A stretch of DNA of 64,000 nt from Physcia stellaris (taxonomy: Eukaryota; Ascomycota; Lecanoromycetes; Caliciales; Physciaceae), in NCBI GenBank assembly GCA_018902385.1, contig JABSSW010000022.1:648485-712484 (forward strand), read 5' to 3'. Positions 24,361 to 64,000 of the stretch are shown here, piece by piece (position 1 is the first letter of the stretch; each line of letters starts with the position of its first letter). Under the pieces are notes generated by a model. It worked only from the letters and a program-made list of their open reading frames with translations. It ran no database searches and was not told the DNA's origin. A program made the translations under genes and the position numbers.

Positions 24361-26648
24361 GCTCACATAATAACAAAAAAGAATTTACGATCTCGTAAAT
24401 AATTTCGAAATAATCATCGAAATGTGTGTAATTTCAATATTCAGTTTTTTAAATTTAATCGATCAAAACTCGTAACATCGATTCATTCATAACTCATAAT
24501 TTTTCATTGTTTTTTCATCGTTTCGTTCATCAACTTGTTGAAATTTTTCTTGAGAAAATTGTAATTCGTGACTAGATTAATTTTCATTTTTTGTTTAATT
24601 TCATTGATTTGTCGATCAATTTGTGATTGATTTAATATGAATTCAGTTTTTTTTCAGTTTTTTTTTTTTCAATTTTTGAAACGTTGTTTTTTGAATTGTT
24701 GTTTCATTTTTGTTTTTCATGTACTTTGCTTGATTTTCAGATATTTCGTTCAATATTTTTTCGATCACTCATTTTTCATTTTGATTTTCGTCGCAAACGT
24801 AATCATGATTATAATTTTAATTTCGAATTCAAAATCGCATTTCGAGCATTGACATGAATGCGCGTCTATTAAAATCAAAAAATTGAATGATATCTTTTTT
24901 GACGATTTAGATTGATTTTTCAATTTTATGTGACATCGATCGTACTTCATGTGAATGATTTTTGACTCAATTTCGTTGAAATGATCGTGTTTTTTTTGAT
25001 TTTCATTCGTGATTTCGTCATCGATTTTCATAGTTTTTTTGATTTTTTCATTGTTCGTGATCATGATTTTTGAAAAGAAAAAGTTTAACAATTTGTCAAT
25101 GATATAACAAACATCGAGAATCATCGTTTTGTCATCGATGATTTGTTGATTAAATTGCGAAACATAATTTTCATAAATTAAGAAATTCTTTTTAATGAAT
25201 TCGCATATTTTCGTCAACATGCTAACATTGTGAATCAGATTGATGTTCGCTAATTGAAAATCATTTTTCAAAAAAACGAAATCGATTAAAAAATCGTGAA
25301 TTATTTTCGTCAATCGTATTTTTTCGACAACAATGTGTTTTTTTTTCGTTTTGACTTGATTTTTGATCATTGCATCTAAATTCTGTTTGATGTTGATCAA
25401 ATAAATGTTGTAATTAATGAAATGAATTTTGTTTTCAACGACGAACAGCTGATTTAGTCTTAAATCTTGATTGAGATTTAAAAATTCTGAAAATACGACA
25501 CTTGCAAATCCGATGAACAGACTAGCATACGATTCAAGCTTGATTTCGAACATCTCGTCGAATATTTTGATGAACACATTTTTCAAGTACTGATAAACTA
25601 GATTTCAAAAATGAATGATTTTTTTTTTTCGATTTGAGCTAGTTGATAGATACATCGTGCTGAATTCACAGCGAAAAATTACGAACAAATCGATTTTCGA
25701 ATTTCGTTGAAATTCAATTTTGATTATTTTGATCACATCTTTTTCGTGTGATGTCATTAATTCTTGTTTGTTAGTCAATTTAGTTTTTTTTTTGTTTAGT
25801 TCAGTTAATTTCGACTCGTTGATTCGCTTATGATTTTTGTAAAAATTGATTTAGATGTGATTACTTTCTCGAAAATGTCGTATTCGTCGTCAAGTAATTC
25901 GTCATTTTCAACTTTTTCGCTCTTTATGATTTGGCTAGTTTTTTTGCGATTTCTAGTCTGAATTTGTAATTTCGAAAAAATAGATAGATTTTGTTTTGTG
26001 AGTCGCTTTCGTGCTTCGATACGTTTAGTTTTTTTTCGATTTTCTTTGCTGTCAGCTTCGATCAGTACATTGATTTTACTGTCGATCATTTTATTTGATC
26101 GATGTTAAAAAGATGTTTCGTAAAATCGCTAATGTATATCGTTTGAAACAATTGCAAAGTGAAATTGTAAAACAAAGCGAAATGTGAATGTTTGATGAGT
26201 TGCAAAGTGAAAATGTGAAATGAATTGTAAAGTGAAAGTTGAATAATTTCATCGCGACTAATCAAGCGCGTTAATTCCGATAGAAAAATGTTGTAACGAA
26301 GAGCGAAATCGATTCGTATTCGCTGAAAAAGACGACGACAACGAAAAGCGAAATCGATTCGTATTCGCTTGAAATTTTTATTTTTTTGCTAATTTAACGT
26401 CATTGCGAACGATGTGTAATTTTTTTTTAGTTGATGATTAAACATAGTGTCCGTTGCTCAAATCTGATGATGATTCGTATATTGTCGTAAACTTCGCTGA
26501 TCGAAATCAATAAATTTGTCAAAATTGATCGTTGATGATAAGTTATAATATCATCGATATGATATTTTTTTGATTTTTTTTCGTGAATTGACTTGATGTG
26601 AACGCTTTGTTCATGATGAGTTCAATCTAGCATTATACGAAGTTTTAA
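24361..26648 (-). pseudogene. Accessory coding region downstream of integrase (unknown product, decayed)
   Basis: About 2.3 kb separate the integrase end from the 3' LTR. A 94-codon frame (26089..25805) and a 273-codon frame (25586..24765) lie on the coding strand. The second is extended on both sides by TGA-only interruptions: upstream through a TGA just before 25586, and downstream to about 24.4 kb as a Lys-rich, possibly coiled-coil tail. In such AT-rich DNA TAA would be expected often, so a frame broken only by TGA suggests former coding. One C-rich patch (DAHSCQCSKCDFEF) could be metal-binding. No relation to a known retroelement protein was recognised; it could also belong to an older insertion. 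Confidence 0.4.
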
Positions 26649-28439
26649 TCATTTCGGCTTCAATTTTCTTTCATGTTTTTTATCGACTTGATGATTTTTG
26701 ACTAAAATCAAATCGTCAAAATTGAATATTTTTTGCTGTCGTTGCTTTTTTCCTTGATAGTCATGAATATAGTTGATTGTTTCGCTAGCTAGCAATTTGT
26801 TTTTTTTTTTTAGTGCGATATATATTTGATATTGATGAGTTGACAAAGACTGTTCAGCATTTGTTGAGTTTGAAAAAGTTATTGAATTTATATCGAAGTG
26901 ATATTGTTTGAGCTCGAATTTTAGCATCAGCATAGTCGGGAAATAATTTAATGTTTTGATTGACTTGATATTCATTGTAAGAATATGATTTCGAATAAAC
27001 AGAAATCACGAGTTTGTTGTTTTTCGATTTATACAATTTTTTGCAATAAAATTCAACATTTTTTGAATTGCTCGTTTCAAAAGGTCAGTCGATGAGAAAT
27101 GCGATATTGAATTTGTAAAATGACTAGTGTCATGTTCAGTAAACATTGCGCTAACATCGTTGTTAACGAAATGAAAATCATTGTCAGTGTACGTTCTTTT
27201 TGATCATTCGAAAATTGAACAAATATGCTTTCGTAAAAAGTTTAGCGTTTTCAAGACAATATGTGTGCGATAAATTTTTGTTCAATTGAATCTGTTTCAA
27301 TAATTTCGTCTTAGACAGACATACTGAACATTTGTGACTGAACAAGAAGACGATATAGATTTTAGTCAATTTAAGTCGATCATGATCATTGACTGAAAAT
27401 GCTGAATGCTAAGCGAAATTCGTTGAATTGGCTTTTTTAATCGACATTGACAGAAATGACAATTTTTACATCACGTTTCGATATTTTTTATTTTTGTAAG
27501 TCAATAAGTTCGTTTTATCAAAAAATCAAGTGTTAAGGCTGACGAGAAATGATCGTGATTTTCGTGAACTACTTTGAAAAATCGTGATATTTCTTTTTCG
27601 ACTATGCAAATGTTATTTTTCCCGTTTGTTTTCCGATAAAATAAATGAATTGTAGTAGCGTGTGAAGATAAAATGTAAACATTGATTTTATTTCCGAGAA
27701 TTTTTATTTTTCTAGCGGTCAATTTTTGCTTCTTCAAATTATCTGGTTTTTTTTCGAAATACTTCATCAGCTGACTATACATTGAAAACTTATAATACTT
27801 ATTCAGTTTCTCAAAAGACAAAATAGATAACGATTCTGTTTTCCGTTCAACTTCTGATTTTCGCTCATTATCAATTTCAGATGAATGATCAAATTGTTCA
27901 TTCGACAAATAAATGTTAGAGTTTCGTAAGTTCACGTTTAGCACTGACATAGTCAAACGTTTCTTTTTCGAATAAGTAATTACATTTTGCAATCTAATGA
28001 GCATTCGACTAAGTTCATCGACAATATCTATGTGTTGATCTTTATTGAGTCGATGATGTAATTTGAGATCGAACTTTCTCAACATGTCTAGTCATGAAAT
28101 TACTTTTTTTTTTTCTGTTTGTTTTGTGGCGAACATTGATTTTAACGTTTCATGATCAGTATACATCATTATTGGAAATTTGTTGTTCATGACTAGTCAT
28201 CTAATTTCGACTAAACTTTTCATTATGACATAACATTCACGTTCAGAATTCGAATATCGTGTTTCTGCGTCGTTCAGGCGATAAGACAGAAACATGAGCA
28301 TTTTTTCATGAATTAGCAATTTCGAAATAATTTCAATTTTTGTTTCAATATCTTGCAGTTGAAATAAACAAACTCTCAATTTCGTTTCGTTAGCATTCGT
28401 GATCAAATGAAACTGAAATGCTGAATTTGTTTTTGTCAT
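26649..28439 (-). pseudogene. RNase H and integrase portion of the Gypsy pol, broken by TGA codons
   Basis: The RNase H domain begins near 28439 and contains MLMFLSYRLNDAETRYSNSE and ERECYVIMKSL, then a TGA (28199..28197) where the family has Trp. It continues with MMYTDHETLKSMFATKQ, another TGA (28094..28092) inside ISxLDMLRKFDL, and HHRLNKDQHIDIVDELSRM. The integrase zinc finger region lies near 27.2-27.4 kb (CSVCLSKTKLL). The integrase end KHERKLKPK is followed by TGA (26651..26649), where Gypsy integrases read KPxW. The protein is non-functional. Frame breaks beyond the TGAs, mostly in A/T runs, are also present. Confidence 0.75.
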
Positions 28440-28760
28440 GACATTATTAATTATAATTTCTTTAATCGATTCGAATGTTTTTTGTTGACTTGCTTCTCAA
28501 TCGAAAATATTTTTTTTTACATATTTGCGTTGAATGATTGATCGTTTTATTCGAAACGTTTTATGTGACTTGATCAGATTTTCGTCGCATGATTTCATTT
28601 TTGTATCATGATTTTTTTTGAACTTGAATTCGTTTGATTTCAGCATGAGATAGATTTTTTTCATTTTTAGCACTAGCTTCGCTTTTTCGAATATAAAGAT
28701 TCGTAAAAAAAACGTCAATCATAAGAACGCATTTAATTTTTTTCGATTCTTAAAAACAAA

Positions 28761-29607
28761 TCAATTCAAAATCTTGTTGCGATGCTTGAAAGTTGATTTC
28801 AAACTTTTTGCATTTTTTTCAAATTTTAGAAGATTTAATTTGTTCGAAAACAAATACGTTTTAGAATCAAATAAATATATTGAGTCAAATACACATTTGA
28901 AGAAATATTGAATGTGCAAAAAATTAAACAAAATTTCGTAATTTGTAATTGACGCTTCGTGATCATTCATAAAAATTGCGAAAATTAATTCGTCATGATC
29001 ATCAATCATTGTGACTATTCTGATCACGTCGACGTCGTTGAATGACAATGAGTCAAATATCAAATCCGAAAATTGCGCATAGATAAACGAACTTTTTTAA
29101 GATTTTGATTCATTCTTAGATATACTCACTGATCGTTGAAAATAATAAATTCAATCTTATTTTCATCATTTTTCTTGATTGAAATCGCTCAATAATCATT
29201 TGCTGCGTCCGAACAAAAGTAAATCGAAAACTTGAATTTCAAAAAAATAATTATAATTTTTTCATGTGATGCATAGAATAAGCTGATTTGATAATGTACT
29301 TGTTGATGAATATAAAATTATGAATCACTCGCAATAGCTCTGACTCTTTCTTTTTGAAAGAAAATTTGATTTTAGCTTTTCATGAGCTGTTTTTTCTGAT
29401 TATAATGTCTGCATTTTCTAATTCTGGAAAAATTCGATTTGCGAATTTTTTCTTTTTGAAAATGTACTTAGATAACGTATTCCGAATTGATTTCGCATTC
29501 GAAATAAAATCGATTGAATGTTTAATAAGATTTGTAACTCGTATGTCTTTAACTGTTATCGCAAAACATTTTTTCCAAATGTAAACTAGTCGTTTCGTTT
29601 TAGTCAT
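28761..29607 (-). pseudogene. Reverse transcriptase portion of the Gypsy pol, with mutated catalytic box
   Basis: The N-terminal RT region near 29.6-29.3 kb reads HSIDFISNAKSIRNTLSKY, ANRIFPELENADIIIR and FPFKKKES, matching the conserved entry into the RT palm. The catalytic box lies in the 29063..28761 frame, where IFMNDHEAS replaces the family's F/Y-x-D-D; the first Asp is Asn (28967..28965, AAT). The change GAT to AAT fits the GG-to-GA pattern seen across the element. Polymerase activity must be lost. Confidence 0.7.
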
Positions 29608-30107
29608 TTTTTTTTTTGTATCAGCGTCTAATTCTATAGTAATTTCACTTTTTTCGAATCACTTTTCAATAACATTCATGTTTTCATTATTTAGTTCTCG
29701 TTGTATTGATTTTCTTTGCGTCGAGAAGTCACTTTTTGTATCTAGCGAATATTTAGATAAGATAAATTCTGTTTTCGTAATCACGAAAGTAAAAATAGTG
29801 ATAATCGTCATGAACGCTAACGACTGTTGACTAAATATATTAAAATTATCCTGATCAATTTTGCGACATTCACGTTTCAGCGAATGATCATTCGTTGAGT
29901 ACGTATTCAGTTTAATTGCTCATTTAAAAGCAATTGACAAACAGCGTCGATCAAATCGCTAATCTCGTCGTCGTTATTCACTTTTATCGTTGATAAATCA
30001 ACATGAATTGAAAAGATTTGAGTTGACACTTTTCGTTTTTTTTCATTTCTTTCAATTATGATTATTTCGTTTGTGTCATAATGCGAATTAAAAGTTACTT
30101 TTTTCAT

Positions 30108-30797
30108 TCATGAAATGCTCAGTAGCAAATCATAAATCTGATTGTTCACGATATACGTTCTAATCACAGTTTTTATCTTTTCGACATTAACAGAAAGTAC
30201 GATGTAATTTGTGAGCGTTTCAACGTGATTCGTGATTAAATTAACTCGAAAATGATCGTTTGTTCGTACAAAGAATGCAAATTTCATGACTAAGAATTTT
30301 TGACGACTAATCAATTTCATCATCGACTTTTCATCTATCAATGTTCTTGACAGTTTCACATTGTTTATTCAAGAAATAATCATCAGAGATTGTGATTGCT
30401 CATCATTTTCGTGAGCATGAATTATAATGACTGATGATTTTGTCTTAATTTTTGTGATCGTTATAGTCAATGACGTCGTCGTTTCTTGTTGATTTCGACT
30501 TTGCTCATTAGCTTTTCGAACTCGATATTTCGCAATAAATTTTTGCATGCTTTCTGTCAACTTTAATCTGATCACATCGAACTTGTCGAGAAATTGTTTC
30601 AACGACAAAATCAAGAGCAAATTCATGATGATGTTTACGTTGAATCGATTAACTTCGAATAAATCTCGAATAGAATCGAAAATCTTTGAAGATTTGTACG
30701 AAATCAAGTGAATTAAATTTTCTTTTTTATTGAGTTTGATTGACGACGAATTTCGAAATTCATATTGAGTTGAATTTTGCGATATCGACTGAGACAA
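30108..30797 (-). pseudogene. Gag C-terminus/linker and retropepsin portion, decayed
   Basis: A 142-codon frame (30797..30369) continues from gag with a polar linker. The frame 30359..30108 has the character of the C-terminal half of a retroviral-type aspartic protease and ends IVNNQIYDLLLS, resembling the family's YDLLLG ending that precedes a PW motif. The catalytic DTG could not be identified. Confidence 0.5.
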
Positions 30798-30824
30798 TTG
30801 TGAGAAAGATGATCGATTATTTCT

Positions 30825-32603
30825 TCAAGAAATTGATTGCAAAATCGATTGATAAATGAACGTAAATTCATTTTCGTCAATCTTATTTTCCGAAATATTC
30901 ATTTTTTTTGATTTTTGATTTTTTTTATTTTTTTCATCATCATTTTGATTTTTCGCATTGAACACATATTTTACGTTTTTTTTCGAAATCTTAGCTGACG
31001 AATTCAATCGAAATTTTGATTTCTTGATTTCGAAAAACGACGTCGTCGTTGCTTGATTAATTTTCTGTTTGTTTTTAACATTTTGCGCAATCATGATTGT
31101 GATCAAATATGATTTCTGTGCTGATAAAATACAAATCACTGATGAGAAAAAGTTTCGATCATTATTCTCGTCGTCGATGTGATAATTTTTCATTTTAGTT
31201 TTTTTCAAAATCGACAATGATGATGCTAAAATTACGACATTCGACATTGTTGATTTAAATTCATGTTGTGATTTATTGACAGCTTGACTATGAAATGATT
31301 GACTAGAAATAGCACTCAGTCGAGTCAATTCATTCGAAAAAAATGACTGACTAAAAACAGATGAATATTTCGCTTGTCGTTGAAATTGTATTTGATTAAT
31401 TGATATCATTGCGTGATTGATGACTTTCGTGATTTTAAACGTTTGATTTGATTGATCTGAACAATGTGAAACGTAATGATTTGATTGTTTGCATATGTAA
31501 CAAATTATATGTGCAAAATTTTTGTCGCTTTGTTGCGTACTCGTAAATCTTCGCTGATCAAAATTCGTAAACTGATCAGAATTGAAATTCAGCGAACGTA
31601 ATGCCTGAAACATCGCTGAAAAAGCTTGATTACTATTAATTAGAATTTGTCTAAGCAATTCATCATTGATTTGATCAAGATTTGTTGTATGAAACAGCAT
31701 CATTTGCATAGTCTTTTTGTATTTCGAATCAAATGAATTGAGCTTGTCTATTTCACTGTAGATTGTTTTAATCAATTTATTCACAGCGATAAAATTGTAA
31801 TTTTGTTTTTTTTGACATTCGAAATTTATTTGCTTTCTTTTCGAAACGTTTTTCATATTTCGCAAGATAGTCATTTCGACATCAATTTCGTCGTTAAATA
31901 GTTTTCGCGAAATATCTGAAGCTCGTTTGATATAATCGGAAATCAATTTTTGATTTTTTTGTTTCAGTTGAATCAATTGCATTTTTAGTTCAAACTTTTT
32001 AGTTTGAGCATTTTTCACGAAAATTTCATAATATTTTAAGAAGAATTTCAGCAATTTAAATCAATTTTGTTTGAAATCTGATTTCAGATTTCTGTATCAA
32101 GCATGAGCATCATTTTTCAAATTCTGACGAAACAGCATTCGTTTGAATTTATTAGTCGTAATCTCATCGACGTCAATTGTTTTGAAATTCCGTTCGTATG
32201 CTCAATTTATGTTTTCAATGTATTTTTTCGAATTTTTTCTTTCGTCTCGAAATTTTTTAAAGAATCGAATTTTGATTGAAATCATCATGAATAGAATTGA
32301 ATTTGCCGAATTGAAAATGATTGATTTAAGAAAATTTAGCTCGAATTTTGACTTGTTAAATGAAATTTTTTTCGAAAAAGCAAATTCTTTTAGCGATGAC
32401 GAGATTTTTTCGAAATTATTTTCAAAAAAAGCTGTGTAAAATTGATTTTGATCGAATGAATAGAAAAAATCACGCTTGAAAAGTGATTTAGTTTTGCTAG
32501 CAATCGTTTGTCTAGCAAAAAAAAAAGTGATTTTTTTTTTAAATTTTGATGTAATTTGCAAGTCTTTTTCGAAAAATGAGAAATGAAATATTCGATTCGT
32601 CAT
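30825..32603 (-). pseudogene. Retrotransposon gag with CCHC zinc knuckle, interrupted by TGA at Trp sites
   Basis: Two frames (32603..32202 and 32054..30825, 133 and 409 codons) belong to one gag reading. Between them the only interruptions are TGA codons at places that read as Trp in context (ENIN-x-AYE, AHA-x-YRN, KQN-x-FKLL). The long frame contains a basic/helical capsid-like region and a CCHC knuckle, C-x2-C-x4-H-x4-C (CYICKQSNHYVSHC). Many CAA Gln codons survive, which would not be so under CpA-directed RIP. The protein is rich in Asn, Lys, Phe and Ile, as expected after strong GC-to-AT change. Confidence 0.75.
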
Positions 32604-32825
32604 AAGTTATTCGATTTTTCGATAGCTTTTAGTTTTGCTCAGTCAAGTTTTTTTGACTATGACAAAATGCACGTAACGATGATTAAATGAGAAGATTTTT
32701 TTTCGATCAAATTCTTCTGACCGAAACAACACGAGTAAAATGCAAAATGAATGAAAAATTTTCAAACACGTATTTTTGTTTGAGTCTGCAGCATCAATCT
32801 GCTACAATTTCTGTTCGATTTTCAC

Positions 32826-32972
32826 TGAAAAACTAGTCATTGATGAATAGAAATCAATGACTAGAATCAGGATGCATTGTATGATGATGGAAAAAGTTCC
32901 TGATGGCCAGGTGGCCACTTATGCTACTGCTAGGCTAGGCTAATTGAGGAAGATGCATTTTGCACTTCATCA
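32826..32972 (-). repeat. 5' LTR (right copy)
   Basis: This 147 bp LTR is the partner of 24213..24360. It starts TGAAAAACTAGTC and ends TTGCACTTCATCA, followed by the GTGA duplication. It lies upstream of gag for minus-strand transcription, so it is the 5' LTR. Confidence 0.8.
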
Positions 32973-32976
32973 GTGA
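32973..32976. repeat. Right target-site duplication GTGA
   Basis: Direct copy of the GTGA left of the element at 24209..24212. It marks the end of the insertion and return to normal composition. Confidence 0.65.
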
Positions 32977-33030
32977 TCTGCATTGAGCTTCGCGCTAGCC
33001 TTAAGGCTGCATCTGGATATGACATTTTAA

Positions 33031-33059
33031 CGATTTACCGATCGAGCCGATTTACCGAT
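33031..33059. promoter_or_regulatory. Duplicated 12-mer CGATTTACCGAT upstream of UBA2
   Basis: CGATTTACCGAT occurs at 33031..33042 and again at 33048..33059, 17 bp apart and about 160-190 bp before the UBA2 start. It lies between the retrotransposon and the gene. A paired protein-binding site is one possibility; it may equally be a chance tandem duplication. Confidence 0.3.
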
Positions 33060-33217
33060 GCCGAATAGACCCCGTCAGTGCGTATGGTACCCCTGCTACA
33101 TTTCATCTTCACTTCACTCTCCTGCCCAATTCACCATCTCTATGCGCCCACCCTCTATTTCAACTCTGTCAATCCTCTCCTCACTTGCATTCCTCTACAT
33201 GACCACATCTTACAGCC

Positions 33218-41000: not shown

Positions 41001-41076
41001 TATAGATTTAGGTGATCTGTGGCCTTAAGCCTTGGATTTGCTATAGTTGGGGGAGGAGGGAGCGAGGGAGCGAGGG

Positions 41077-52299: not shown

Positions 52300-54399
52300 A
52301 TCAATATCATCGAAATGTTCGCATTTTTCTATTGCGACATTCAATATCATATCAAAATCAATGAAAAAATTATCAATTTCATTTTTTCGAACATTCGTAT
52401 CAAAACATTAAAATTTTTATTTCATTATTCATGATTTGATTGTAAAATGTCATGCATTGATATAATATTAATACATAATTACACGAAAATTTCTAAATAA
52501 AAAACAAATACACGAAAATTTGCAAAAACATATATAAAAAATTTGATTTTTTGAATGCGTCAAGACGAATTTCGATCTTAACATTCGATGATAAAATAAC
52601 GATATTAACACGATGTTAATTTTGTTCAGATGTTGAATTCGATGCACGTTCGTCACATTATTTTTCGTTTTTCGTCAATTTCGTTTCGAAACGATTAATT
52701 GATTTTTTTTTTTGAACGTTTTGCGCGATGTAAATATGTTTTTGAATGACGTCGAATTGATTGATCGTCGAAACAAAAAAATAAACGCGAAACGTCGCGA
52801 AAAAAATTTCGTCAACGAAATAAATTCGTTTAAATTTCGAAAACATTCATATGATTATATTTTGAAATAAACAATTTGAATTTATTAATAAAATCGTCGT
52901 GACAATTTTTAATGCATTGATATTTTCGAACATGCGAAAATCGATGTGTACATTGCATGCGACAAAACGTGAATGCAATAAATATTTTAAAAAATGATCA
53001 ATTCATGCAATTCGTTAAAAATAATTTCGACGAACATTAATAAACAAATCATTGTGAATTCGATTTCGCGTATCGACAATTTTGAAAATTTTTGCAACAT
53101 CAAATTGATATCACGAAACGAACAATTTGATCAAATTGATGAAATTTTTGTCATCACGATTAACACGTCAACGTTATCGCATATAAAACAACTGATTCGT
53201 ACAATGCATTCAACAAAATATACATGTATTAAATTTTTTAAAAAACAAACATTTTGTACGAATTTTATAAATAATTTCGCGTGTCATTAATAAACAATTG
53301 AAAATTTTGTTGACGAATTTGTAAATATTCGAATTTTTTGACAATTTGTTGTTTATTCATATCATTGCATGACATTTTACATTATCATTCATTGTTCAAT
53401 AAAATTTGACGACAATTTTTGAAAATGTTTTTGACACGATTCAATTTTTCATGCGACGTAAATTTTGACTGTAAATAACGCAAAATGACAACGAAACGAA
53501 TGACAAAAAAATTATTGACGATCATTTGAAAATGAATTGTAACGAATTCGATAACAATTTTTTGATCGATCATAAACAATCAAATTCACGATTTAATCAT
53601 TTCGCAAAACAAATTTTGTTGTTTTTGAATTAATTTCGTGAAAAACATCGACGATATTTTGAACATTTTGAAATTTATCGTCGTCGACATAATATCAAAT
53701 GCGATCGTGAAAATTTCAATTCGATCATTTACAACGATATTGAAAACGATGATAATGATATCGAAATTGCAATATGTCGTCGAATTTTCATTCGAACGTT
53801 TCATTTGCGATAACAAATTTCGAAAAATCGTTGTGTTGTTTTTTCAACGAATCGTTGAAAATTTTTTTTAACAATCAAAAATGAAAAATTGAATGAATAT
53901 GCATGTTATCAAACAATTCGAACTCGTAAACAATATTTCGTTTTTTGACAACGAAATATGAATTTAATTTTTTGTCATTCAATTTATCAAATGAACGAAT
54001 CGTTTTGATGTAACGACGATTTAATTACACAAAATTTTCTATTTCAAAATTGATAAAAAGACGAAATTTGTTGATTCGAATTGTCATTTTTTGTTTGACA
54101 TCGACAACGTTAATTTTAGTTCATTCGATAATGCGATTTATTTTTTCGACAATGAATTCGTTTTGTTTAATTAACAAACGTTTTTTAATGATTTCGTAAT
54201 CATTCAAATTTGAATCAAAAATCATTCGAAAATAATAATATTTATTGATAAAAAAAAAATGAATTCAATAATTGCGAAAACGTCATTGTTGTCAACGAAT
54301 TTCATGATGTCGATTTAATCAATTCAATCGTTTTGACGATAATTGCAATACAAACGTAAACGAATTTCAATGTTTTGATTAATTTGTTCGATTTGATTA

Positions 54400-55212
54400 T
54401 CGATTTGAAATTGAAACGTCGTGAACAATTTACATTTGATTTTTAAACGTTTGCAAAAAAAATTTCAAACGCGATTCACAAATTGATCATTTCGATTCGA
54501 AACGATTGAAAAAAAATAAATCATGCGTGCGAAATACGTAATGAAACAATATTTTGACGCAAATTTCGATTGTCAATTTGTCATCATCGATCACGCAAAA
54601 AACATAATGTCGTTTTTTAATTAATCGATCGATAATAATGCAAATAACGTTGTTTTTTTTTAATTCAAATAATTCGATTATGAAATTTATCGAAATATTT
54701 ATTCATCGTTGATTAAATATTGACAATGATGTTAACAATTCATGACGATCATCGTGTGAAAATTTAAATCGTTGACATTTGTGACAATTACGAATATAAC
54801 GTTTGATAAACAATCGCATATTAAATCAATAATAATAACGTTTAATGAATTTTTCAATGCGATTCATGTTTGAATGAACACAAAAAAATTGATCGTGAAC
54901 ATCGCGAATTATTTCAATCATAAAATTTAAACGATTTGACATTTATAAATTTTCGTTTTTGAAAAAAACGTCGTTTCGATCGAAACATTTTTGCAAATTT
55001 ATTTTTTCGTTGATGATTTGTTCATCGATCAAAATTTGACGATAATTAATGCAATTTTCATTTTTTCGATTGATTTGCATAATTCGTTCGTACAAATCGT
55101 TTTGAACGTCAATCGAACACAATTGCAATCGAAAAAACGACAACAAAATTTGTTTTTTATAAAGTTTTCGTTCGTCGTCATCGACAAAACGAAATTCAAA
55201 CATTCGAATCAA
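54400..55212 (-). pseudogene. Integrase remnant of the minus-strand Gypsy element
   Basis: The frame 55212..54943 holds the pre-integrase region. Beyond it, read by hand, is the H2C2 zinc-binding domain: VHDQFFCVHSNMNRIEKF, KRYYY then TGA (54828..54826, family YYW), and RNCHKCQRFK. The start of the catalytic core, FNQR then TGA (54705..54703) then INISINFIIELFE, matches the family's PWxxISxDFIxxLP. Further left the core is too decayed to follow. Confidence 0.6.
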
Positions 55213-55392
55213 AACGTTTGTTTTAACATTTTTGATTTCGAATTAATATTGAATTTTGATATTGTAATCGATCAAAATTTCGACTTAACGCATTTGACGA
55301 AAAATGAATTTTTTGTTCGTCATGAAAATTTTCAAATTTTTATGATCGATGTAAATTTCGACGAATTTATCGATATTTTCAAATTTTGATTT

Positions 55393-55700
55393 TCAATGTT
55401 TTAAACATCGTATAATGATCAAAAATTTTTTGTCATATATTTCGTAATTGCATTCGACAAAAATCATTTTTTTGTTGAAAAAAGTCATCGAATGAAACAT
55501 TTCGTCGTCGTCGTATTGAAATAAAATTTCATTTAAATATCAATTCGAAAAATTTATTTTTAAAATCGTTTTACGATTGCGATCGTAATGTCGAAAAATT
55601 GAAATTTCGATCATTTGTTTTTTCAAGATTTCGAACGTTTCATTAACGAAATCAATTCATTCGAAATCAGTTTTTTTTTTGATTATTCGAATCAAAAATT
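55393..55700 (-). pseudogene. RNase H remnant of the minus-strand Gypsy element
   Basis: Read by hand on the minus strand: IDFVNETFEILKKQM, then ISIFRHYDRNRKTIL, a TGA, then YLNEILFQYDDDEMFHSMTF and FVECNYEIYDKKFLIIIRCL followed by KH and TGA at 55395..55393, where Gypsy RNase H reads ..EEW... Three TGAs fall at Trp positions and no TAA or TAG interrupts. The catalytic Asp is replaced (KINFSN instead of ..TDAS..). Confidence 0.6.
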
Positions 55701-55791
55701 TGACGAATTTCGAAAATGTTTTGATGAAACGTCGATAAAAATTGCAAAAATTTACAAATGTTTGCATTTTTTTGATACACGTTAAACGAAT

Positions 55792-56706
55792 TCAATCGAC
55801 AATGTTTTGTATTTTTTTAAAATTCATGCGTAAATTTTTCGTTGATAATATGACTTTTAAAAATGAAATTTTCGTTTTAAAAAATTCGCATTTTTTGATA
55901 TCGATTTGAAATTCGACTTTTTTTAATTTTTGAAATATTTGAATGAAATGTCGTTCATGTTTTTTTCGAATTTTATTATAAATGAAAATATCGTTCAAAT
56001 ATATTTGACAAAAATGATTGATATATTCGAACAACAAATCGTTTATGTAATGTTGTCAATTGATTGAATCATTGATTAATTCGAAAAACAATACGTGATA
56101 TTTGTAAATGTTCAATGAACATATAAAAATTGTAAAATTTTCGTTTTGTGAATTTATTCGAAATTTGTTGAAAATCGATATAATGTTTAATTTAAACAAA
56201 AATTTACAATCGATAATTTTAACGAAAATTTTTTCGATTAATGAAATAAAATAATTATTACGTTTGATTATGATGTTCAATTTTCGATAATTCATACATA
56301 AACGAAATTAATCGTTTGATTTGACAACGAATAAAATAAACGAAATATAAAATGTTTTGTTTGAATTGATAAATTTTTTTTGAAAATTTTCATGAAAATA
56401 TTTTTGTAAAATTTCGAATTTTTTAAATGATAGAAAATAAATTCGATTTCGAAACAATTGAATCGATTTTTCAATCAATTCGATTTTGTGATCGTAAAAT
56501 TTATGAAAAAATAATTTATCGATTTTTTTGAAATTGAATACGCTTTCGAATCGTTTAAAAAAGTCAGAAATTTTACGTTTTAATTTTTCAATGATTGTTT
56601 TTATAATTTTAAACGTTTTTTTTGAATTCATATCGAGATCGAATTTCGTTTGAATTAGATTTTCTTTAACGTTGTCAATAATTTCATTTAGTTTTTTCAT
56701 GATCAA
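55792..56706 (-). pseudogene. Gypsy reverse transcriptase with YxDD changed to YLND
   Basis: Frames 56706..56308, 56295..56056 and 56037..55792 read in order through the RT: YDHKIELIEKS, KKFINSNKTFYISFILFVV, FRINSQNENFTIF and the catalytic box QIYLNDIFIYN. The box should be YLDD; the first Asp is Asn (55995..55993), again a GG-context change. The last frame ends IQNIVD then TGA (55794..55792), where Trp is expected before the connection domain. Confidence 0.7.
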
Positions 56707-57587
56707 CGAAAACGTCTTGATTTTTTTTTTCTTTTTGTAAGAAATAAGAATTCAAAATTTCCGAAAATGCGATTCGCATTTCGTCAAGCAATTCGATTAT
56801 CGAAATTCGAATGATTTCGAAAAAAATCAATTTCAATCATTTTACAACTCGATCAACGATAAATTCAACAAATTCATATTTTCAATCGAAATCGATCGAA
56901 TTCGTACGATTGAACAAATAAAATGTAAATAAAAAACAATTGCAAAACGTAATCTGTTTTGTAACGATTAATAAATCAATATATTACATTTCAAATTATA
57001 CATTTTTGATGTCAATAATTCATTAAACTATATTATTTTTAATACGAATTTTACATTCTAATCGCTATCATATTTCAGAATGATGTCATTCGTGTATATT
57101 TAACAGAACACAATTTTGTTGTTTCGTATACATCATGTCGAGTTTTGATAATGATTTGTTTTTTCAATTTGTCGAGAATGTTGATTTATTTTTTTGACTG
57201 ATTTATTACAAGCAACAAATCGAAAAAAATCACAAAAAAAAAATCAAATTTCAAATTCGAATTGTCGAACGTTCGAAATTTGCAATTTCTATTTTATTTA
57301 CTTTTGTTTTTGATTTTGTTTGAAAATTTTTTGTCATGAAAATTATCGAGACAACATCGAATCAATACGAAAAAAAAAATTACAAAAAATGAAAAAAATA
57401 TTGCAAACAAATGAAAAATCAATTTACGCAAAACAACGTGAATCACATGATTCAATTTTCGAATTTAATCAAAATCGCATATATTGAAATTTATTTTAAA
57501 TCAAATAACAATGCGAACAAATTTTGAAACGCAAAAATCGATTTTCATTCAAACAAACAATACATTTGAAACGAATTCAAAATTTTT

Positions 57588-58135
57588 TTGAAAAACGACA
57601 TCGAACGAACAATCACGTTGCAACAAAATTTTTTGAAAAAATATCGCAAACACAAACAAAATCACAATCAATCGATTAAAAATTACAATGTCGAACGAAT
57701 AAATATGTTTGTTGAATTAAAATTCGAATTCAAATTTACGAAAACAATAAAATTCAACGATTTTCGTAACGAATTACGTTTGAAATTTCGCTGCATGCTT
57801 TTTAAAAAAAAGAAAATTTTCACGAAAACGAAATTGTTTGAACGATTCAAACGTATGAAAAACGTTCAAATTTTAAAAAAAAAATTCAAAAATTTCAAAA
57901 AACGTAAAATTTCGTTCGATATTGACAGTTTCGAAAACGAAAACGAGAAATTCAAAATTGCGAAATTCAAAAATAAAAAAATCAAAAATATTAACAAAAT
58001 CAATTCGAATCACGAATCAATCAAGTCGAAAAATATTCGAATGTATCGTTGATTCGTTAACGAATTCAAAAAAATTCAAAACAAAAATAATTGTATAAAT
58101 TGTAACAAATCAAATCATCAAATCGAAATTTGCAC
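57588..58135 (+). pseudogene. Gag of copy A with CCHC zinc knuckle
   Basis: A 154-codon frame (57588..58052) rich in Lys, Phe and Asn, followed in another frame by a CCHC knuckle, C-x2-C-x4-H-x4-C (CINCNKSNHQIEIC, 58092..58133). Nearly identical to the gag of copy B. The frame break lies in an A run. The start codon is a guess; upstream homology was not recognised. Confidence 0.55.
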
Positions 58136-58395
58136 AAACAAAAAAAACAAAATCATTTTCGTTGATCAAATTTTTGAACAATCAAAAAACTAATCGATTT
58201 GATGATTTTCGTTCAAATCGTTAAAAAAAAAAAATTTTCGAATTTCGATTTCGATACGTCGTTTTTTTCAAACATGAGCAAGAATCATGTTAACAAAAAA
58301 AAAACGACGCAAAAAATTTAAAAAATTCGTGATTCGTAAATGCGTCAAAATCAAAATTAACATACAAAACGAAAACAAAATTTGAAACGAATCGA

Positions 58396-59102
58396 AAACA
58401 ATGTTCGATATAAAAACGAAAATTAATTTGATAAATCATGTTTATGCGAAAAAAATTGAATTTTCGTCGTTTTGAAATTTTAAATTGTAATGCAATAACA
58501 ATTGACAATTATCGTTTGAAAACGTATAACGTTTATTTCGTACAATTCGAAATGTTAAACGTCAAAAAAATCAATCGTTTTTTCGAAAAATCGTTTTTGA
58601 TCGTGAATTTGAATTGAAATTTAACGTTAAACATGTTTTGAATACAATTTTCGAAAATCAAAATGAATTGAAACGACAACAATATCAAAATTTGACGTTG
58701 CAAAAAAAAACATTTCATTTTTATCACGAATCGTATCGAAAACATTGAATCAAAACAATTGACAAAAAACGTCATCAATAACGAAATCGAAACGTATTTC
58801 ATGTTCGTACGAATGTATATTGACAAACAATTCGACATGCATGAAATGCACGTTTCAAAACGAATTCAAATAGAATTTGTTTTGACGAAAATGAAAAAAA
58901 ATTCGATATCAAAATCACGCTTTTCGAAATTCTGAAAACGTATGAAAAATTCGATAACGAAAATAAAATTTACGAATTATCGAATCATGATTCAAACGAT
59001 CATGTTATTGATTTAAAAAAAAACAAAAAATCGTCGCATGAATTAATTTATTTTTTGTTTGAAAATGAATTTCGAATATTACGTGTTTACATCGAAAAAT
59101 AT
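58396..59102 (+). pseudogene. Protease and RT-entry remnant of copy A
   Basis: Collinear with 60777..61470 of copy B. It carries the protease-like KTKINLINHVYAKK with an extra A in an A run that shifts frame relative to copy B. It also carries the later FMFVRMYIDKQFDMHEMHV-type block. It ends where copy B starts. Confidence 0.5.
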
Positions 59103-59964
59103 TGTAAGAAATAAAAATTCAGAATTTTCGAAAATGCGATTCGCATCTCGTCAAGCAATTCGATTATCGAAATTCGAATAATTTCGAAAAAAATCAATTT
59201 CAATCATTTTACAACTCGATCAACGATAAATTCAACAAATTCATATTGTCAATCGAAATCGTTCGAATTCGTACGATTGAATAAATAAAATGTGAATAAA
59301 AAACAATTGCAAAACGTAATTTGTTCTGTAACGATTAATAAATCAATATATTACATTTCAAATTATACATTTTTGATGTCAATAATTCATTAAATTATAT
59401 TATTTTTAATACGAATTTTACATTTTAATCGTTATCGTATTTCAGAGTGATGTCACTCGTGTATATTTAACAAAATACAATTTTGTTGTTTCGCATACAT
59501 CATGTCGAGTTTTGATAATGATTTGTTTTTGAATTTGTCGAAAATGTTGACGTATTTTTTGATTGATTTATTACAAACAACAAATCGAAAAAATCAAAAA
59601 AAAAATCAAATTGCAAATTCGAAATATTGAGCGTTCGAAATCTGTAATTTTTATTTCATTTGTTTTTATTTCATTTATTTTTGTTTTTGATTTTGTTTGA
59701 AAATTTTTCGTCATGAAAATTATCGAAATGATTTCGAATCAATATGAAGAAAAAAATTACAAAAAATGAAAAAAATATTACAAACAAATGAAAAATCAAT
59801 TCACGCAAAACAACGTAAATTACATAATTCAATTTTCGAATTTAATCAAAATCGCATACGTTAATATTTATTTTAAATCAAATAACAATGAAAACAAATT
59901 TTGAAACGCAAAAATCGATTTTCATTCAAACAAACAATACATTTGAAACGAATTCAAAATTTTT

Positions 59965-60509
59965 TTGAAAAACGACATCGAACGAACAATCACGTTGCAA
60001 CAAAATTTTTTGAAAAAATATCGCAAACACAAACAAAATCACAATCAATCGATTAAAAATTACAATGTCGAACGAATAAATATGTTTGTTGAATTAAAAT
60101 TCGAATTCAAATTCACGAAAACAATGAAATTCAACGATTTTCGTAACGAATTACGTTTGAAATTTCGCTGCATGTTTTTTAAAAAAAAGAAAATTTTCAC
60201 GAAAACGAAATTGTTTGAACGATTCAAACGTATGAAAAACGTTCAAATTTTAAAAAAAAAATTCAAAAATTTCAAAAAACGTAAAATTTCGTTCGATATT
60301 GACAGTTTCGAAAACGAAAACGAGAAATTCAAAATTGCGAAATTCAAAAATAAAAAATCAAAAATATTAACAAAATCAATTCGAATCACGAATCAATCAA
60401 GTCGAAAAATATTCGAATGTATCGTTGATTCGTTAACGAATTCAAAAAAATTCAAAACAAAAATAATTGTATAAATTGTAACAAATCAAATCATCAAATC
60501 GAAATTTGC
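59965..60509 (+). pseudogene. Gag of copy B with CCHC zinc knuckle
   Basis: A 169-codon frame matching the copy A gag almost residue for residue through KRKISFDIDSFENENEKFK. A small indel then gives a different C-terminus, and the CCHC knuckle (60468..60509) sits in another frame. Lys-rich, probably nucleic-acid binding before decay. Confidence 0.55.
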
Positions 60510-60776
60510 ACAAACAAAAAAAACAAAATCATTTTCGTTGATCAAATTTTTGAACAATCAAAAAACTAATCGATTTGATGATTTTCGTTCAAATCGTTAA
60601 AAAAAAAAAATTTTCGAATTTCGATTTCGATACGTCGTTTTTTTCAAACATGAGCAAGAATCATGTTAACAAAAAAAAAACGACGCAAAAAATTTAAAAA
60701 ATTCGTGATTCGTAAATGCGTCAAAATCAAAATTAACATACAGAACGAAAACAAGATTTGAAACGAATCGAAAACA

Positions 60777-61552
60777 ATGCTCGATACAAAAACGAAAATT
60801 AATTTGATAAATCATGTTTATACGAAAAAATTGAATTTTCGTCGTTTTGAAATTTTAAATTGTGATGCAATAACAATTGACAATCATCGTTTGAAAACGT
60901 ATGACGTTTATTTCGTACAATTCGAAATGTCAAACGTCAAAAAAATTAATCGTTTTTTCGAAAAATCGTTTTTGATCGTGAATTTGAATTGAAATTTAAC
61001 GTTAAACATGTTTTGAATACAATTTTCGAAAATCAAAATAAATTGAAACGATGACAATATCAAAATTTGACGTTACAAAAAAAACATTTTATTTTTATCA
61101 CAAATCGTATCGAAAACATCGAATCAAAACAATTGATCATAAACGTTATCGACAAAAAAATCGAAACGTATTTCATGTTCGTACGAATGTATATTGACAA
61201 ACAATTCGACATGCATGAAATGCACGTTTCAAAACGAATTCAAATAAAATTTGTTTTGATTGAAATGAAAAAAAAATTCGATATCAAAATCACGTTTTTC
61301 GATATTTTGAAAACGTATAAAAAATTCGATAACGAAAATAAAATTTACGAATTATCGAATCATGATTCAAACGATCATATTATTGATTTAAAAAAAAACA
61401 AAAAATCGTCGCATGAATCAATTTATTCATTATTCGAAAATGAATTTCGAATATTACGTGTTTACATCGAAAAACATTTAATTAACGATTTCATTCGATT
61501 TTCACAATTTTTTGCAAAAACGTTCATTTTGTTCGTCAAAAAAAAACGATAA
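60777..61552 (+). pseudogene. Protease and RT N-terminal portion of copy B
   Basis: The frame at 60777 begins MLDTKTKINLINHVY, which matches the retropepsin DTG-A-xINLI active-site region with the Gly changed. It continues AITIDNHRLKTYDVYFVQF. The frame 61067..61552 holds the protease-RT connector and RT entry: NDHIIDLKKNKKSSHESIYS, ENEFRILRVYIEKHLINDF and FILFVKKK. It then breaks in an A run. Confidence 0.65.
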
Positions 61553-62410
61553 TTTACGATTATGTGTGAATTACAAAAATTTTAATGTTTTCACGATAAA
61601 AAATAAATATTTTTTATCGTTAATCGATGAAAATCTAAATAAATTCAACAAAATCGTCAAATATATCAACATCGATTTGATTGCTGTTTATCATCGATTG
61701 CGTATCAAACATGAAAATGAATAAAAACAATTTTTCGTATTCGATATGATCATTTCGAATATAACGTATTTTTTCGATTTCATTAACGTTTCGACGACGT
61801 TTCAAAATTTTATCAATAAAATTTTGCGATTCGTCTCGATATTAACGTTATAATATATTTGAACGATATAATAATTTATTCGATAAACGTCGAAATTCAT
61901 GTCGACGATGTCAAATGAATTTTTGATCGTTTAAAAAAAATAAATTATATATTGTTTTTGAAAAATGCAAATGATTCGTTGACGAAATAAATTTTTTTGA
62001 ATTCGTCGTTTTTTTTTCAAAAAATAAAAATGCAAAACAAAAAAATCGAAATTATTCAACAATGATTTGTATTTCGCAACGTTTTCGACATCATGCAATT
62101 TTTCGACATCGTTAATTTTTATCGACGATTCATTAAACATTTCAATAAAATTGTTGAATTTTTGATCGTTATGCTAAAAAAATCGCAAAAATTTCGAAAA
62201 AATATTCGTAAACGCAAACGAAATCAAAATCGAAATCGCAACAAATTATCGAATATTTACATTTTTTTGATCAACGAAACATTGAAAATTTTCAAACGAT
62301 TTCGCAAAACATTTATCGAAACATTAATTTTACGTCATTTCGATTTCGAACGTGTTATTCGAATCGAAATCGACGTATTCGACAAAATCATCGAAATCAT
62401 TTTATGTTAA
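61512..62410 (+). pseudogene. RT core and RNase H start of copy B
   Basis: The frame 61512..61724 continues NLRLCVNYKNFNVFTIKNKY and IDLIAVYHRLRIKHENE, then TGA (61722..61724) at the invariant Trp of the RT motif EWKTAF; IKTIFRIRYDHFEYNV follows. The fingers/palm beyond are shredded. The frame 62093..62410 gives the RT connection and RNase H start: FFDIVNFYRRFIKHFNKI, FRKTFIETLILRHFDFE and RIEIDVFDKIIEIILC. Confidence 0.65.
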
Positions 62411-63299
62411 CAAAACGACGAAAATCATTGACATTTTGTTGCGTATTTTTCGCGCAAAATGATTTCGATTGAATACGATTACGAAATTCATAACAAAAAA
62501 TTGTTGATTATTGTGATTTCGTTCAAACAATGAAAACATTATTTCGAAAACGCAAAAAAACAAATTTTTGTTTTTATTGATTATCGCAATTTGAAACAAT
62601 TTATGATTATAATTAAATTGTCGTCACGTCAAATTCGATGAATTCAAAAATTGAATCGATAGAATTTTTTAATCAATTATCGTTTCGATAACAAAAATTT
62701 TGTTGACGAATTTTCAAAACGATTTGATCACATGATGATTATTAAAAAAAACGTCGAAAACAATCGTCAAATTTTGAAACAATTGCAAAAATTATTGATC
62801 GCAAACTCGAAACGTTTCGAAAAAATACGAATAAATGCGATCAAAATTATGAATGCGATGCATGTCATGAAACGATTTATAAATGCGATGCATAACATGA
62901 AACGTCGATCGCATTTAAATAATTTAAAAATCGAATCAATTAACGTTGTTTCAAAAACATTTGATTCAAAAAATTCAAAACGAAATCGAATTTCAATCAA
63001 CGTTGTTTCGAAAACATTCGATTCAAAAAATTCAAAAAATTCGAAACATTCGATTGAACAAAAATTAAACGTGACATTCATAAAATGAAAAATTTTTGTA
63101 TTAAAATTAACGATTGTATTTGAATGCGCAATATATAAAATTCGAATACAAATTGCTTTACGAAAAAAAACGATATATAACGATAAATTAACACAATCAT
63201 TGTTGAATTTCGTTCGTGATTTGATCGTTAAAAATCAATTCGTTTTTGAAATATGTCGAAAATTAATTATTTCGAAAACGAAAACAAATCATTGATAAC

Positions 63300-63560
63300 A
63301 CAAAAATGAATTTTTGTATTACGACGACGTCGTTTACATTTCAAAAAATTTGCGTGAAAACGTTATTCGTGTCAATCACGATAATTCGTTCGTTAATCAT
63401 TTCGACATCGAACGAACGTTAAAATTGATACGTCGAAAATATTATTGATCGAATCAAAATTTTATTGAAATTTTTAAAATGCGACAACAAATCAAAAAAC
63501 ATTGTAAAACATGCGTCGTTTGCAAACGAAACAAAATTTCACAACACAAATCATACGACG
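63300..63560 (+). pseudogene. Integrase H2C2 domain remnant of copy B
   Basis: Read by hand: LRENVIRVNHDNSFVNHFDI, IRRKYY then TGA (63446..63448, family YYW), and HCKTCVVCKRNK. The His pair and Cys pair of the integrase zinc-binding domain are intact. The catalytic core would lie to the right, beyond recognisable sequence. The preceding 62732..63088 frame is an unassigned linker with an internally repeated INVVSKTFDSKNS. Confidence 0.55.
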
Positions 63561-64000
63561 AGTTTTTTTTTTCAATTTTTGAATTTAAATGAATTGATTT
63601 TTTCATGAATTTCGTGACGAAACTTTTTTCAAATAAAACGTGAAATGAAACGATTTACGATTCGATTTTAATGATTGTAAATCGTTTAACGAAAATGATT
63701 TATTATATATCAATAATTAAAACGATTTTCGCAAAAATTTGATCGAAATTTTATTTCGCGAAATCATTCGATTTCACGATTTTTCGTCAATCGTTATCGA
63801 CAAAAATTTCATTTTACATTCAAATATAACGACGCGTTGTGTTACGTTTTGAAAATCAAACGTAAATTGTCAATCGTTTTCATTTTCAAATCGATGAACA
63901 AATCGAACGAATGAACAACGTCATAAAACAATTTTTTCGCGTTTCGTCAATTTCGAACAAAATGATTGAATAAAATTGTTGTTCATGATCGAATTCGTTT
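63561..64000. other. AT-rich DNA at the right window edge
   Basis: Continuation of copy B, probably the integrase core, but too decayed to recognise. Same depletion of CC, CT, GG and AG. Confidence 0.4.

Follow-up and report, generated by a model that had tools for sequence, protein, structure and literature searches.

Repeated DNA in the ascomycete Physcia stellaris carries C-to-T mutations whose 3'-neighbour preference is the reverse of that of Neurospora RIP: cytosine is lost before C or T (CpY) and kept before A or G. We studied a 64,000-bp stretch of contig JABSSW010000022.1 (the window), in which two AT-rich blocks, here called block 1 and block 2, are affected (Table 1). The mutation spectrum, the order in which its targets disappear, its confinement to repeats across the stretches we examined and the thinning of mutations at the ends of one repeat family are direct observations. 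Judging from sequence, we think it probable that they reflect a RIP-type defence with a reversed 3'-neighbour preference, whose mutator would be one RID-like methyltransferase of the sexual cycle.

The CpY depletion is confirmed and goes far beyond chance. In block 2 (16,560 bp, 25.2% GC), C/(C+T) on both strands is 0.48-0.55 where A or G follows, versus 0.001-0.04 where the next base is C or T. Observed/expected dinucleotide ratios, computed from each block's own base frequencies, give the same picture: CC occurs 3 times (0.01), GG once (0.00), CT 81 times (0.10) and AG 123 times (0.16), with CA at 1.30 and CG at 3.85. The corresponding ratios in block 1 (28.6% GC) are 0.13 for CC, 0.07 for GG, 0.62 for CT, 0.68 for AG and 2.19 for CG. 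Control gene DNA of the window (1-24360 and 32826-47440), in contrast, shows no CC or CT depletion (CC/GG 0.93-0.98, CT/AG 1.03-1.08), and the borders between blocks and gene DNA are abrupt, within about 100-200 bp. Both the ratios and C/(C+T) by 3' base thus agree with the claim of the first-pass annotation that two AT blocks are affected and the gene DNA between them is normal. It had also called TpA low, which holds at 0.39 in block 2 and 0.46 in block 1 against 0.72 in gene DNA. Its hand counts were reproduced on the plus strand of 55381-55740 (18 CA, 24 CG, 0 CT, 0 CC) and in 31021-31200 (CT 7, CC 0); for the minus strand of 55381-55740 the absence of GG was right, and AG occurs three times, not twice. 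A pure base-composition effect was rejected, as the ratios already allow for the base frequencies of each block and depletion does not extend to CA and CG.

Table 1. Features of the window, with strand where one applies.
Feature	Position	Strand	Remark
Unaffected gene DNA, control	1-24000		C/(C+T) 0.41-0.60 before every base
GTGA beside left LTR, candidate 4-bp target-site duplication	24209-24212		Could be chance
Left LTR of block 1, TG...CA ends	24213-24360		Partly CpY-mutated
AT-rich block 1, LTR retrotransposon interior	24361-32825		CpC almost gone, CpT mutated in part; CpA and CpG retained
411-aa open frame surviving in block 1	30828-32060	-	Weak hint of a zinc knuckle (E 0.32)
Right LTR of block 1	32826-32972		Partly CpY-mutated, fewer mutations toward outer edge
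GTGA beside right LTR, candidate 4-bp target-site duplication	32973-32976		Matches 24209-24212; could be chance
Unaffected gene DNA between blocks, control	33000-47200		C/(C+T) 0.42-0.63 before every base
AT-rich block 2, high-copy repeats	47441-64000		Extends past window end; almost no CpC or CpT left, CpA and CpG retained
Element-like unit with 107-bp inverted arms	47865-52547		Arms 47865-47971 and 52441-52547, 80% complementary
617-aa open frame in CpY-exhausted DNA	49740-51590	+	
Tandem pair of about 2.37-kb units	56735-61478		Units start at 56735 and 59102; 92-99% identical by segment

Such blocks escape the standard RIP indices, as had been predicted. In the two blocks, TpA/ApT is 0.47 and 0.41, and (CpA+TpG)/(ApC+GpT) is 1.50 and 1.38; both indices lie on the RIP-negative side of the quoted limits of 0.89 and 1.03 (PMC3828140). 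The CpA preference and TpA excess of Neurospora-type RIP are absent from the blocks and from their genomic copies. For mutation of the CpY type, TpA- or CpA-based indices return false negatives.

Comparison of genomic copies identifies the targets directly. Block 1 was aligned over seven copies, the window's included (two short ones of the 9 matches were omitted), and cells were counted from pairs of copies, which are not independent. C/T differences affect 215 of 279 CpC cells (77%) and 3798 of 4560 CpT cells (83%), compared with 1109 of 9984 at CpA (11%) and 525 of 6749 at CpG (8%). For the block 2 family we used 30 of the 40 listed matches, those with DNA, two of the 30 lying in the window; no CpC remains there to compare, and the differing cells number 7985/8508 at CpT, 6528/53750 at CpA and 2697/59265 at CpG. 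The differences therefore fall mostly at CpC and CpT and not at CpA or CpG, one of two points on which the first-pass annotation had let its claim depend; on the other, CC/CT depletion equal to that of unaffected DNA, the gene DNA of the window speaks for the claim as well. The partly mutated blocks and the copies also bear out its proposed order, CpC first and then CpT; CpA follows only slowly. CpA is not wholly immune: its C fraction falls from about 0.55 to 0.41 in the most mutated copies, and it declines together with CpT (Spearman 0.74, 44 loci of related families), so the specificity is graded rather than absolute. CpG keeps its C fraction, with T in 44 of 2820 CpG cells of the 30 block 2 family copies. 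Methylation and deamination at CpG (DNMT1/Masc2, DNMT5) were rejected, since CpG cytosines are retained.

The two LTRs of block 1 record the same process within one insertion. They differ by 23 transitions, all of the CpY type, and by 0 transversions; the left LTR is the mutated side at 14 of the 23 differences, and the cytosines kept in both comprise 27 CpA, 15 CpT and 3 CpC. Beyond the window, the spectrum recurs on many contigs and in several repeat families. CpY-depleted segments of 500 bp were found in three of six arbitrarily placed 10-kb stretches (25 of 120 segments), and the C fraction at CpA was 0.35-0.64 in all 25. Within block 2, both 55381-55740 (best 40 of 344) and 58001-59500 (best 40 of 397) have at least 40 genome matches. 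An artefact or compositional origin (satellite, assembly error, contaminant or mutational AT bias) might be suspected of blocks that are very AT-rich and repetitive, but CA and CG are intact, both strands, many contigs and several families are involved, and the LTR pair shows the CpY pattern within a single insertion; we give this reading almost no weight.

Ultraviolet or APOBEC/AID-type damage is a highly improbable cause as well. CC and CT are indeed dipyrimidines, as would suit ultraviolet light; yet block 2 keeps TCA (1022 of 1807) and TCG (1195 of 2308), which both agents would strike, and nearby gene DNA is spared. The 5' neighbour has a modest effect at CpT in the block 1 copies (mutated fraction 0.73 at TCT, 0.72 at ACT and 0.56 at GCT; 12 of 34 at CCT), and the 5' dependence and TpC targeting of such spectra are not seen. 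Both spectra were rejected on the trinucleotide counts. An APOBEC_N profile search gave no match in the genome, nor any in the control genomes.

The distribution of mutations resembles RIP. C:G-to-T:A transitions are concentrated in repeated DNA, and in the copies fetched both strands are affected and unique flanks spared. The ends of block 1 were analysed in six copies; the seventh, cut by a contig end, was excluded from this test and from the 5'-neighbour and strand-run tests. At the right end, the fraction of unmutated CpY cells is 0.24-0.31 in the interior (500-bp bins) and climbs to 0.65, then 0.85 and 0.88 over the final three 25-bp bins. For the left end, 5 further places were fetched (the other listed matches are short pieces), and the successive 25-bp bins of the left LTR give 0.60, 0.60, 0.38, 0.36, 0.47 and 0.43, that is, 0.60 in the outer 50 bp and 0.36-0.47 in the inner part, with the element interior mostly at 0.17-0.33. 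The end effect is weaker and more uneven at the left LTR than at the right end, and the left LTR of the window's own copy, taken alone, shows a step at the LTR boundary and no gradient. Processive action might show as a strand-run pattern among residual sites; none of the six copies, which are near saturation, had one (shuffle p 0.33-0.91), a point against the RIP-type reading. Two RIP pathways have been summarised (PMC12543289); fewer mutations at element ends and normal neighbouring gene DNA fit RID-type, repeat-limited mutation.

Candidate enzymes are present for a methyltransferase pathway, one of the two options (deaminase or methyltransferase) of the first-pass annotation. Searching the genome with PF00145 yielded four matches, which fall in three genes; we read these as one DIM-2 and two RID-like genes (RIDa and RIDb). 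RIDa and RIDb have open frames after inferred splicing, and both match PF00145 and DNMT1 chains. Only 41-52 residues separate their two DNMT1-matching blocks, versus 189-207 in DNMT1; in DNMT1, the target-recognition domain usually lies in this stretch. Most C5-methyltransferases have an ENV motif, at the position of which RIDa carries EQT and RIDb EET. We tentatively take the two proteins to be RID-like on their architecture and their DNMT1-type match. They resemble the DNMT1-like Masc1/RID subfamily in their PF00145 and DNMT1 matches and very short recognition stretch, and RIDa also in its EQT; RIDb stands apart through its EET and its short length (513 aa). The main exon of the DIM-2 orthologue matches PDB entries 9bap and 9baq with 630 bits. 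The gene aligns with 9bap_A, which we take to be Neurospora DIM-2 (its PDB molecule name is generic), 1456 residues, E 4.6e-188, across regulatory and catalytic parts, as expected of the DIM-2 family. The genome also has a MAT alpha-box gene, which together with the RID-like and DIM-2 genes suggests a filamentous ascomycete.

With a DIM-2 orthologue in the genome, DIM-2 rather than RID could be the mutator: heterochromatin would direct methylation to the CpC and CpT cytosines of repeats, which would then deaminate, in mitotic or premeiotic cells. Slow accumulation of this kind matches the graded loss. In Neurospora, DIM-2 reportedly methylates CpT by preference (PMC13297926), and Zymoseptoria Dim2 raises mitotic C-to-T changes (PMC8016269). 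However, the mutation context of the Zymoseptoria enzyme is CpA, with CT sites almost unmethylated (PMC8016269), and the sharp edges and fewer end mutations seen here favour homology-limited mutation over spreading heterochromatin. On balance, we regard DIM-2 as an unlikely mutator, with some chance of being the right one.

The mutation is probably RID-driven. Repeated DNA would be recognised by homology, and cytosines before a pyrimidine would be changed to T on both strands of the repeat copies, in the order CpC, CpT and, very slowly, CpA, with CpG essentially immune. The mutator would be one of the two RID-like DNA methyltransferases, presumably active during the sexual cycle, like RID of Neurospora. 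Because these proteins have a short recognition stretch, reading the 3' base would have to fall to the catalytic core or to a partner. Neurospora RID prefers CpA, which counts against this reading; the proteins found here would have to prefer CpY. More tentatively, one of them, perhaps the short RIDb, might be homology-guided with an intrinsic CpC>CpT, CpG-blind and nearly CpA-blind specificity, lacking a conventional target-recognition domain. If so, the specificity of RIP would be a trait of the enzyme that is open to evolution, up to full reversal, and genomes that TpA-based indices classify as lacking RIP may carry the CpY form. A mutator outside the known DNMT families, such as a deaminase with a 3'-pyrimidine preference acting on paired repeats, with or without RID, is favoured by the lack of most of the usual recognition region in the RID-like proteins; moreover, we know of no eukaryotic C5-methyltransferase with a CpC-first, CpG-blind specificity. 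Against it, no candidate gene was found and no deaminase identified in the genome, and RID-like genes with open frames are present, so we think such a mutator quite improbable.

Set beside known systems, the repeats of P. stellaris share with the RID-dependent RIP of Neurospora crassa its C:G-to-T:A changes on both strands of repeat copies, its spared flanking gene DNA and the presence of RID-like and DIM-2 genes. They differ in that Neurospora RIP prefers CpA and makes TpA, whereas the mutation seen here nearly spares CpA, exhausts CpC and CpT and leaves TpA low. A CpT bias alone is already known in other ascomycetes (PMC4352252, PMC2621366). CpT-biased RIP-like signatures are described in Botrytis, Sclerotinia and Magnaporthe (PMC4352252), in Anisogramma (PMC10998396) and in some Colletotrichum truncatum families (PMC6180176). 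Transposon C-to-T changes at CpT are common ground, in ascomycetes that have RID genes (one or two copies according to PMC4352252; Anisogramma has two); those fungi show CpA signatures or CpA-loss indices as well, unlike the largely intact CpA here, and the term CpC, the first target here, is absent from the main texts of all three papers. With RIPCAL, CpT changes were reported for Neurospora Tad1 and, in Stagonospora nodorum, for short rDNA repeats (PMC2621366). CpT-to-TpT is dominant in these cases too, and the S. nodorum repeats lack evidence of CpA changes; the authors doubt that those changes are RIP, and the accessible text describes neither a CpC-first order nor the whole-block transposon saturation seen here. 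Transposons of Microbotryum, rusts and truffle are likewise enriched in C-to-T changes, of the CpG type (PMC4352252), a specificity opposite to that of our blocks, where CpG is best preserved. We found no description of a CpC-first, CpA-sparing RIP in the openly licensed literature searched. Surveying 1,239 fungal species, a 2025 study concluded that RIP-like defences share a CpA preference (PMC12543289); with CpC and CpT gone and CpA and CpG kept, the present genome is a clean counter-example. This suggests that the 3'-neighbour preference of repeat-directed mutation is reversible, and the determinant of RIP specificity becomes testable by comparing RID proteins.

The reversed preference also alters the outcome for transposons. 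Classical RIP is expected to give TAA and TAG stops (PMC3828140). Here, the 287 listed reverse-transcriptase matches (drawn from the best 150 of 165 and the best 150 of 527, some being pieces of one element) hold 791 stops, of which 651 are TGA, 134 TAA and 6 TAG; a few of the domains have no stop. The TGA excess is expected of CpY mutation, which turns TGG into TGA, and CpA-type RIP predicts no such excess. Tryptophan codons are the sole codons that a CpY mutator can turn into stops, so elements keep long frames even when heavily mutated. Ten open frames of the blocks, the 411-aa and 617-aa frames included, gave no Pfam match above the curated cut-off, and their matches below it look like chance. 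Survival of the 617-aa frame fits a mutator sparing CAA, CAG and CGA codons.

Mutation of cytosines that precede C or T (CpY) in the two AT-rich blocks is real and strong. In block 2 (16,560 bases), exact dinucleotide counts are 3 CC, 1 GG, 81 CT and 123 AG, giving observed/expected ratios, with expectation taken from the block's own base composition, of 0.01, 0.00, 0.10 and 0.16, with CA at 1.30 and CG at 3.85. Block 1 is less extreme (CC 0.13, GG 0.07, CT 0.62, AG 0.68, CG 2.19). These counts bear out the first-pass annotation, which had described CC and CT as depleted and CA and CG as kept. Dinucleotide content is ordinary in the gene DNA that precedes block 1 and in that separating the two blocks, as had been claimed for the latter, and the edges between mutated and gene DNA are sharp. 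The pattern is measured most cleanly by splitting the fraction C/(C+T) on each strand according to the 3' neighbour (see table).

Coordinates of the features analysed, with the C/(C+T) fraction by 3' neighbour (plus/minus strand) where it applies
Feature	Position	Description
Gene DNA	1-24000, 33000-47200	C/(C+T) 0.41-0.63 in all contexts
Block 1	24361-32825	C/(C+T) before A 0.48/0.57; G 0.38/0.46; C 0.03/0.02; T 0.14/0.21
Block 2	47441-64000	C/(C+T) before A 0.55/0.48; G 0.55/0.48; C 0.002/0.001; T 0.027/0.036
Left LTR of block 1	24213-24360	147-148-bp direct repeat, TG...CA ends, flanking GTGA
Right LTR of block 1	32826-32972	147-148-bp direct repeat, TG...CA ends, flanking GTGA
RIDa	locus L015	RID-like, ~935 residues; predicted splice model, one intron removed, N-terminus not fixed
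RIDb	2906-4558 of locus L013 (G000:C6)	RID-like, 513 aa; open after removing two inferred introns
DIM-2-like protein	locus L014	about 1,225 residues; predicted splice model

UV-type and APOBEC-type spectra are excluded because TCA (1022/1807) and TCG (1195/2308) are retained in block 2. Mutation at CpT depends modestly on the 5' neighbour, the mutated fraction among block 1 copies being 0.73 for TCT, 0.72 for ACT, 0.56 for GCT and 12/34 for CCT. The window also holds a 169-bp tandem repeat (2.5 copies, 81% matches, 13743-14164) in gene DNA of normal composition and a perfect 14-bp tandem repeat (3.7 copies, 41073-41124), AGGGAGGAAGGCAC.

The direct repeats bounding block 1 are the long terminal repeats (LTRs) of a single retrotransposon, and such repeats are expected to be identical when an element inserts. 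The pair now differs by 23 transitions and one single-base gap. Every transition is of the CpY type, the mutated base lying in the left LTR in 14 cases and in the right LTR in 9, and transversions are absent; the cytosines retained in both are 27 CpA, 15 CpT and 3 CpC. One insertion therefore yields a mutation spectrum with polarity, independently of other copies.

Copies elsewhere in the assembly (43,974,083 bases, 147 contigs), in which the window occupies G000:C22:648485-712484, give the same picture. Nine genomic matches were found for a 1.5-kb piece of block 1; seven of them, the window's own copy included, were aligned. Block 2 is highly repeated, with at least 40 matches for each of two queries (the best 40 of 344 and of 397 candidates). 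Pairwise C/T differences among the block 1 copies fall at 215/279 CpC, 3798/4560 CpT, 1109/9984 CpA and 525/6749 CpG cells, and differing cells among 30 block 2 copies (two in the window), from which CpC has already gone, are 7985/8508 CpT, 6528/53750 CpA and 2697/59265 CpG, compared cells in both sets sharing ancestry and not being independent. The alignment check proposed at first pass thus places the changes mainly at CpC and CpT.

Attack proceeds from CpC to CpT to CpA, and CpG is spared. Averages of the C fraction over 44 loci, drawn from two groups of families, are 0.004 at CpC, 0.041 at CpT, 0.499 at CpA and 0.500 at CpG. In partly mutated 500-bp windows of one sampled 10-kb stretch (L058), CpT stands at 0.19-0.27 while CpC is at 0.01-0.08, in agreement with the earlier suggestion that CpC is hit first and CpT next. 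The accompanying claim that C is kept before A or G holds for CpG, which is not attacked, but not fully for CpA: its fraction drops to about 0.41-0.47 in the copies lowest in CpT and declines together with CpT (Spearman 0.74, 44 loci), and a slow secondary activity at CpA therefore exists.

Stop codons carry the same signature. A CpY mutator creates stops only by turning TGG into TGA, and converts existing TAG to TAA; classical CpA-directed repeat-induced point mutation (RIP) yields TAA and TAG. Among the matches listed, some of them pieces of one element, 137 RVT_2 domains hold 401 TGA, 101 TAA and 3 TAG, and 150 RVT_1 domains hold 250 TGA, 33 TAA and 3 TAG. TGA is a codon that classical RIP does not produce, according to the cited section of PMC3828140. 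The TAA share (134/791 stops) may reflect conversion of former TAG or slow mutation at CpA, and the stop-free domains (4/137 RVT_2, 10/150 RVT_1 among the matches listed) may mark elements that are recent or have escaped mutation. Each frame of block 2 contains 3 to 7 TAG codons, far fewer than TAA or TGA codons, as expected if ApG mutates to ApA.

Six 10-kb stretches placed at arbitrary positions were divided into 120 windows of 500 bp; the CpC fraction is below 0.15, our threshold for CpY depletion, in 25/120 windows, confined to 3/6 stretches, with CpA at 0.35-0.64 in all 25; this suggests that about a fifth of the genome is affected, from a sample too small to fix a genome fraction. No exact copy of a 20-base LSU primer site was found in the assembly, and the rDNA array may therefore be missing or different there.

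Mutation thins at element ends, as seen in both window LTRs and loci L016-L021 and L061-L065 (retrotransposon copies). In six copies, the share of unmutated CpY cells rises from 0.24-0.31 per 500-bp bin in the interior to 0.65, 0.85 and 0.88 over the final three 25-bp bins at the right end. At the left end the effect is present, but weaker and uneven: in the window and five other copies, the bins of the LTR stand at 0.60, 0.60, 0.38, 0.36, 0.47 and 0.43, and most bins inside its boundary at 0.17-0.33 (one small bin 0.50), the window's copy alone showing a step and no gradient. Such thinning at the ends of homologous tracts, past which gene DNA is normal, agrees with repeat-guided mutation and offers a possible read-out of the mutator's reach relative to the end of homology. 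Strand runs among residual sites gave no signal.

The process resembles RIP in being C-to-T, on both strands, in repeats, with the copies examined affected and thinning at the ends; it differs from usual RIP in its dinucleotide rule and its stop-codon outcome. On these grounds we class it as a RIP-type defence whose 3'-neighbour preference is reversed, a reading that the data support. The sections consulted of earlier studies describe CpT alongside CpA signatures, or RIP indices showing CpA loss, in Botrytis, Sclerotinia and Magnaporthe (PMC4352252), Anisogramma (PMC10998396) and Colletotrichum truncatum (PMC6180176); changes at CpT that outweigh those at CpA in Neurospora Tad1, together with short Stagonospora nodorum rDNA repeats that show CpT changes and none at CpA, for which the authors doubt RIP (both PMC2621366); dominant CpT and ApG in RIP-capable fungi analysed by alignment (PMC7882544); CpA plus double CpC-to-TpT changes in Monilinia (PMC8959702); and less preferred CpA, yet high TpA, in Monacrosporium haptotylum (PMC3828140). 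A kingdom-wide survey, in the part cited, decides for CpA (PMC12543289). No description of a CpC-first, CpA-sparing RIP was found in the literature searched. The pattern is of high interest because it contradicts the general statement about RIP and the usual indices are blind to it.

PF00145 has four matches across the genome, in three genes. RIDa and RIDb share 41% identity over the catalytic part and a splice position adjoining the PGE motif; two apparent in-frame TGA codons of RIDb fall within inferred introns. The gap between the two DNMT1-matching blocks is 41 residues in RIDa vs 189 in chain 5gut, and 52 in RIDb vs 207 in chain 5guv. At what we take to be the ENV motif position, RIDa has EQT and RIDb EET, and RIDb could be a specialised paralogue. 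The third gene is DIM-2-like, its main exon matching chains 9bap and 9baq at E values under 1e-187. We infer that the mutator is, of several options, most likely a RID-like protein. As far as the cited portion reports, the Neurospora RID pathway acts on repeats themselves, and a k-mer shift in crosses needed RID, not DIM-2 (PMC12543289). DIM-2 stays the chief rival because a passage of PMC13297926 reports that it favours CpT, although the Zymoseptoria enzyme is associated with CpA in the cited part of PMC8016269. The CpY-specific genome-defence pathway first proposed is supported, with a RID-like protein as its probable enzyme and with the slow loss at CpA as an exception to strict specificity. 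The genome also carries a MAT alpha-box gene.
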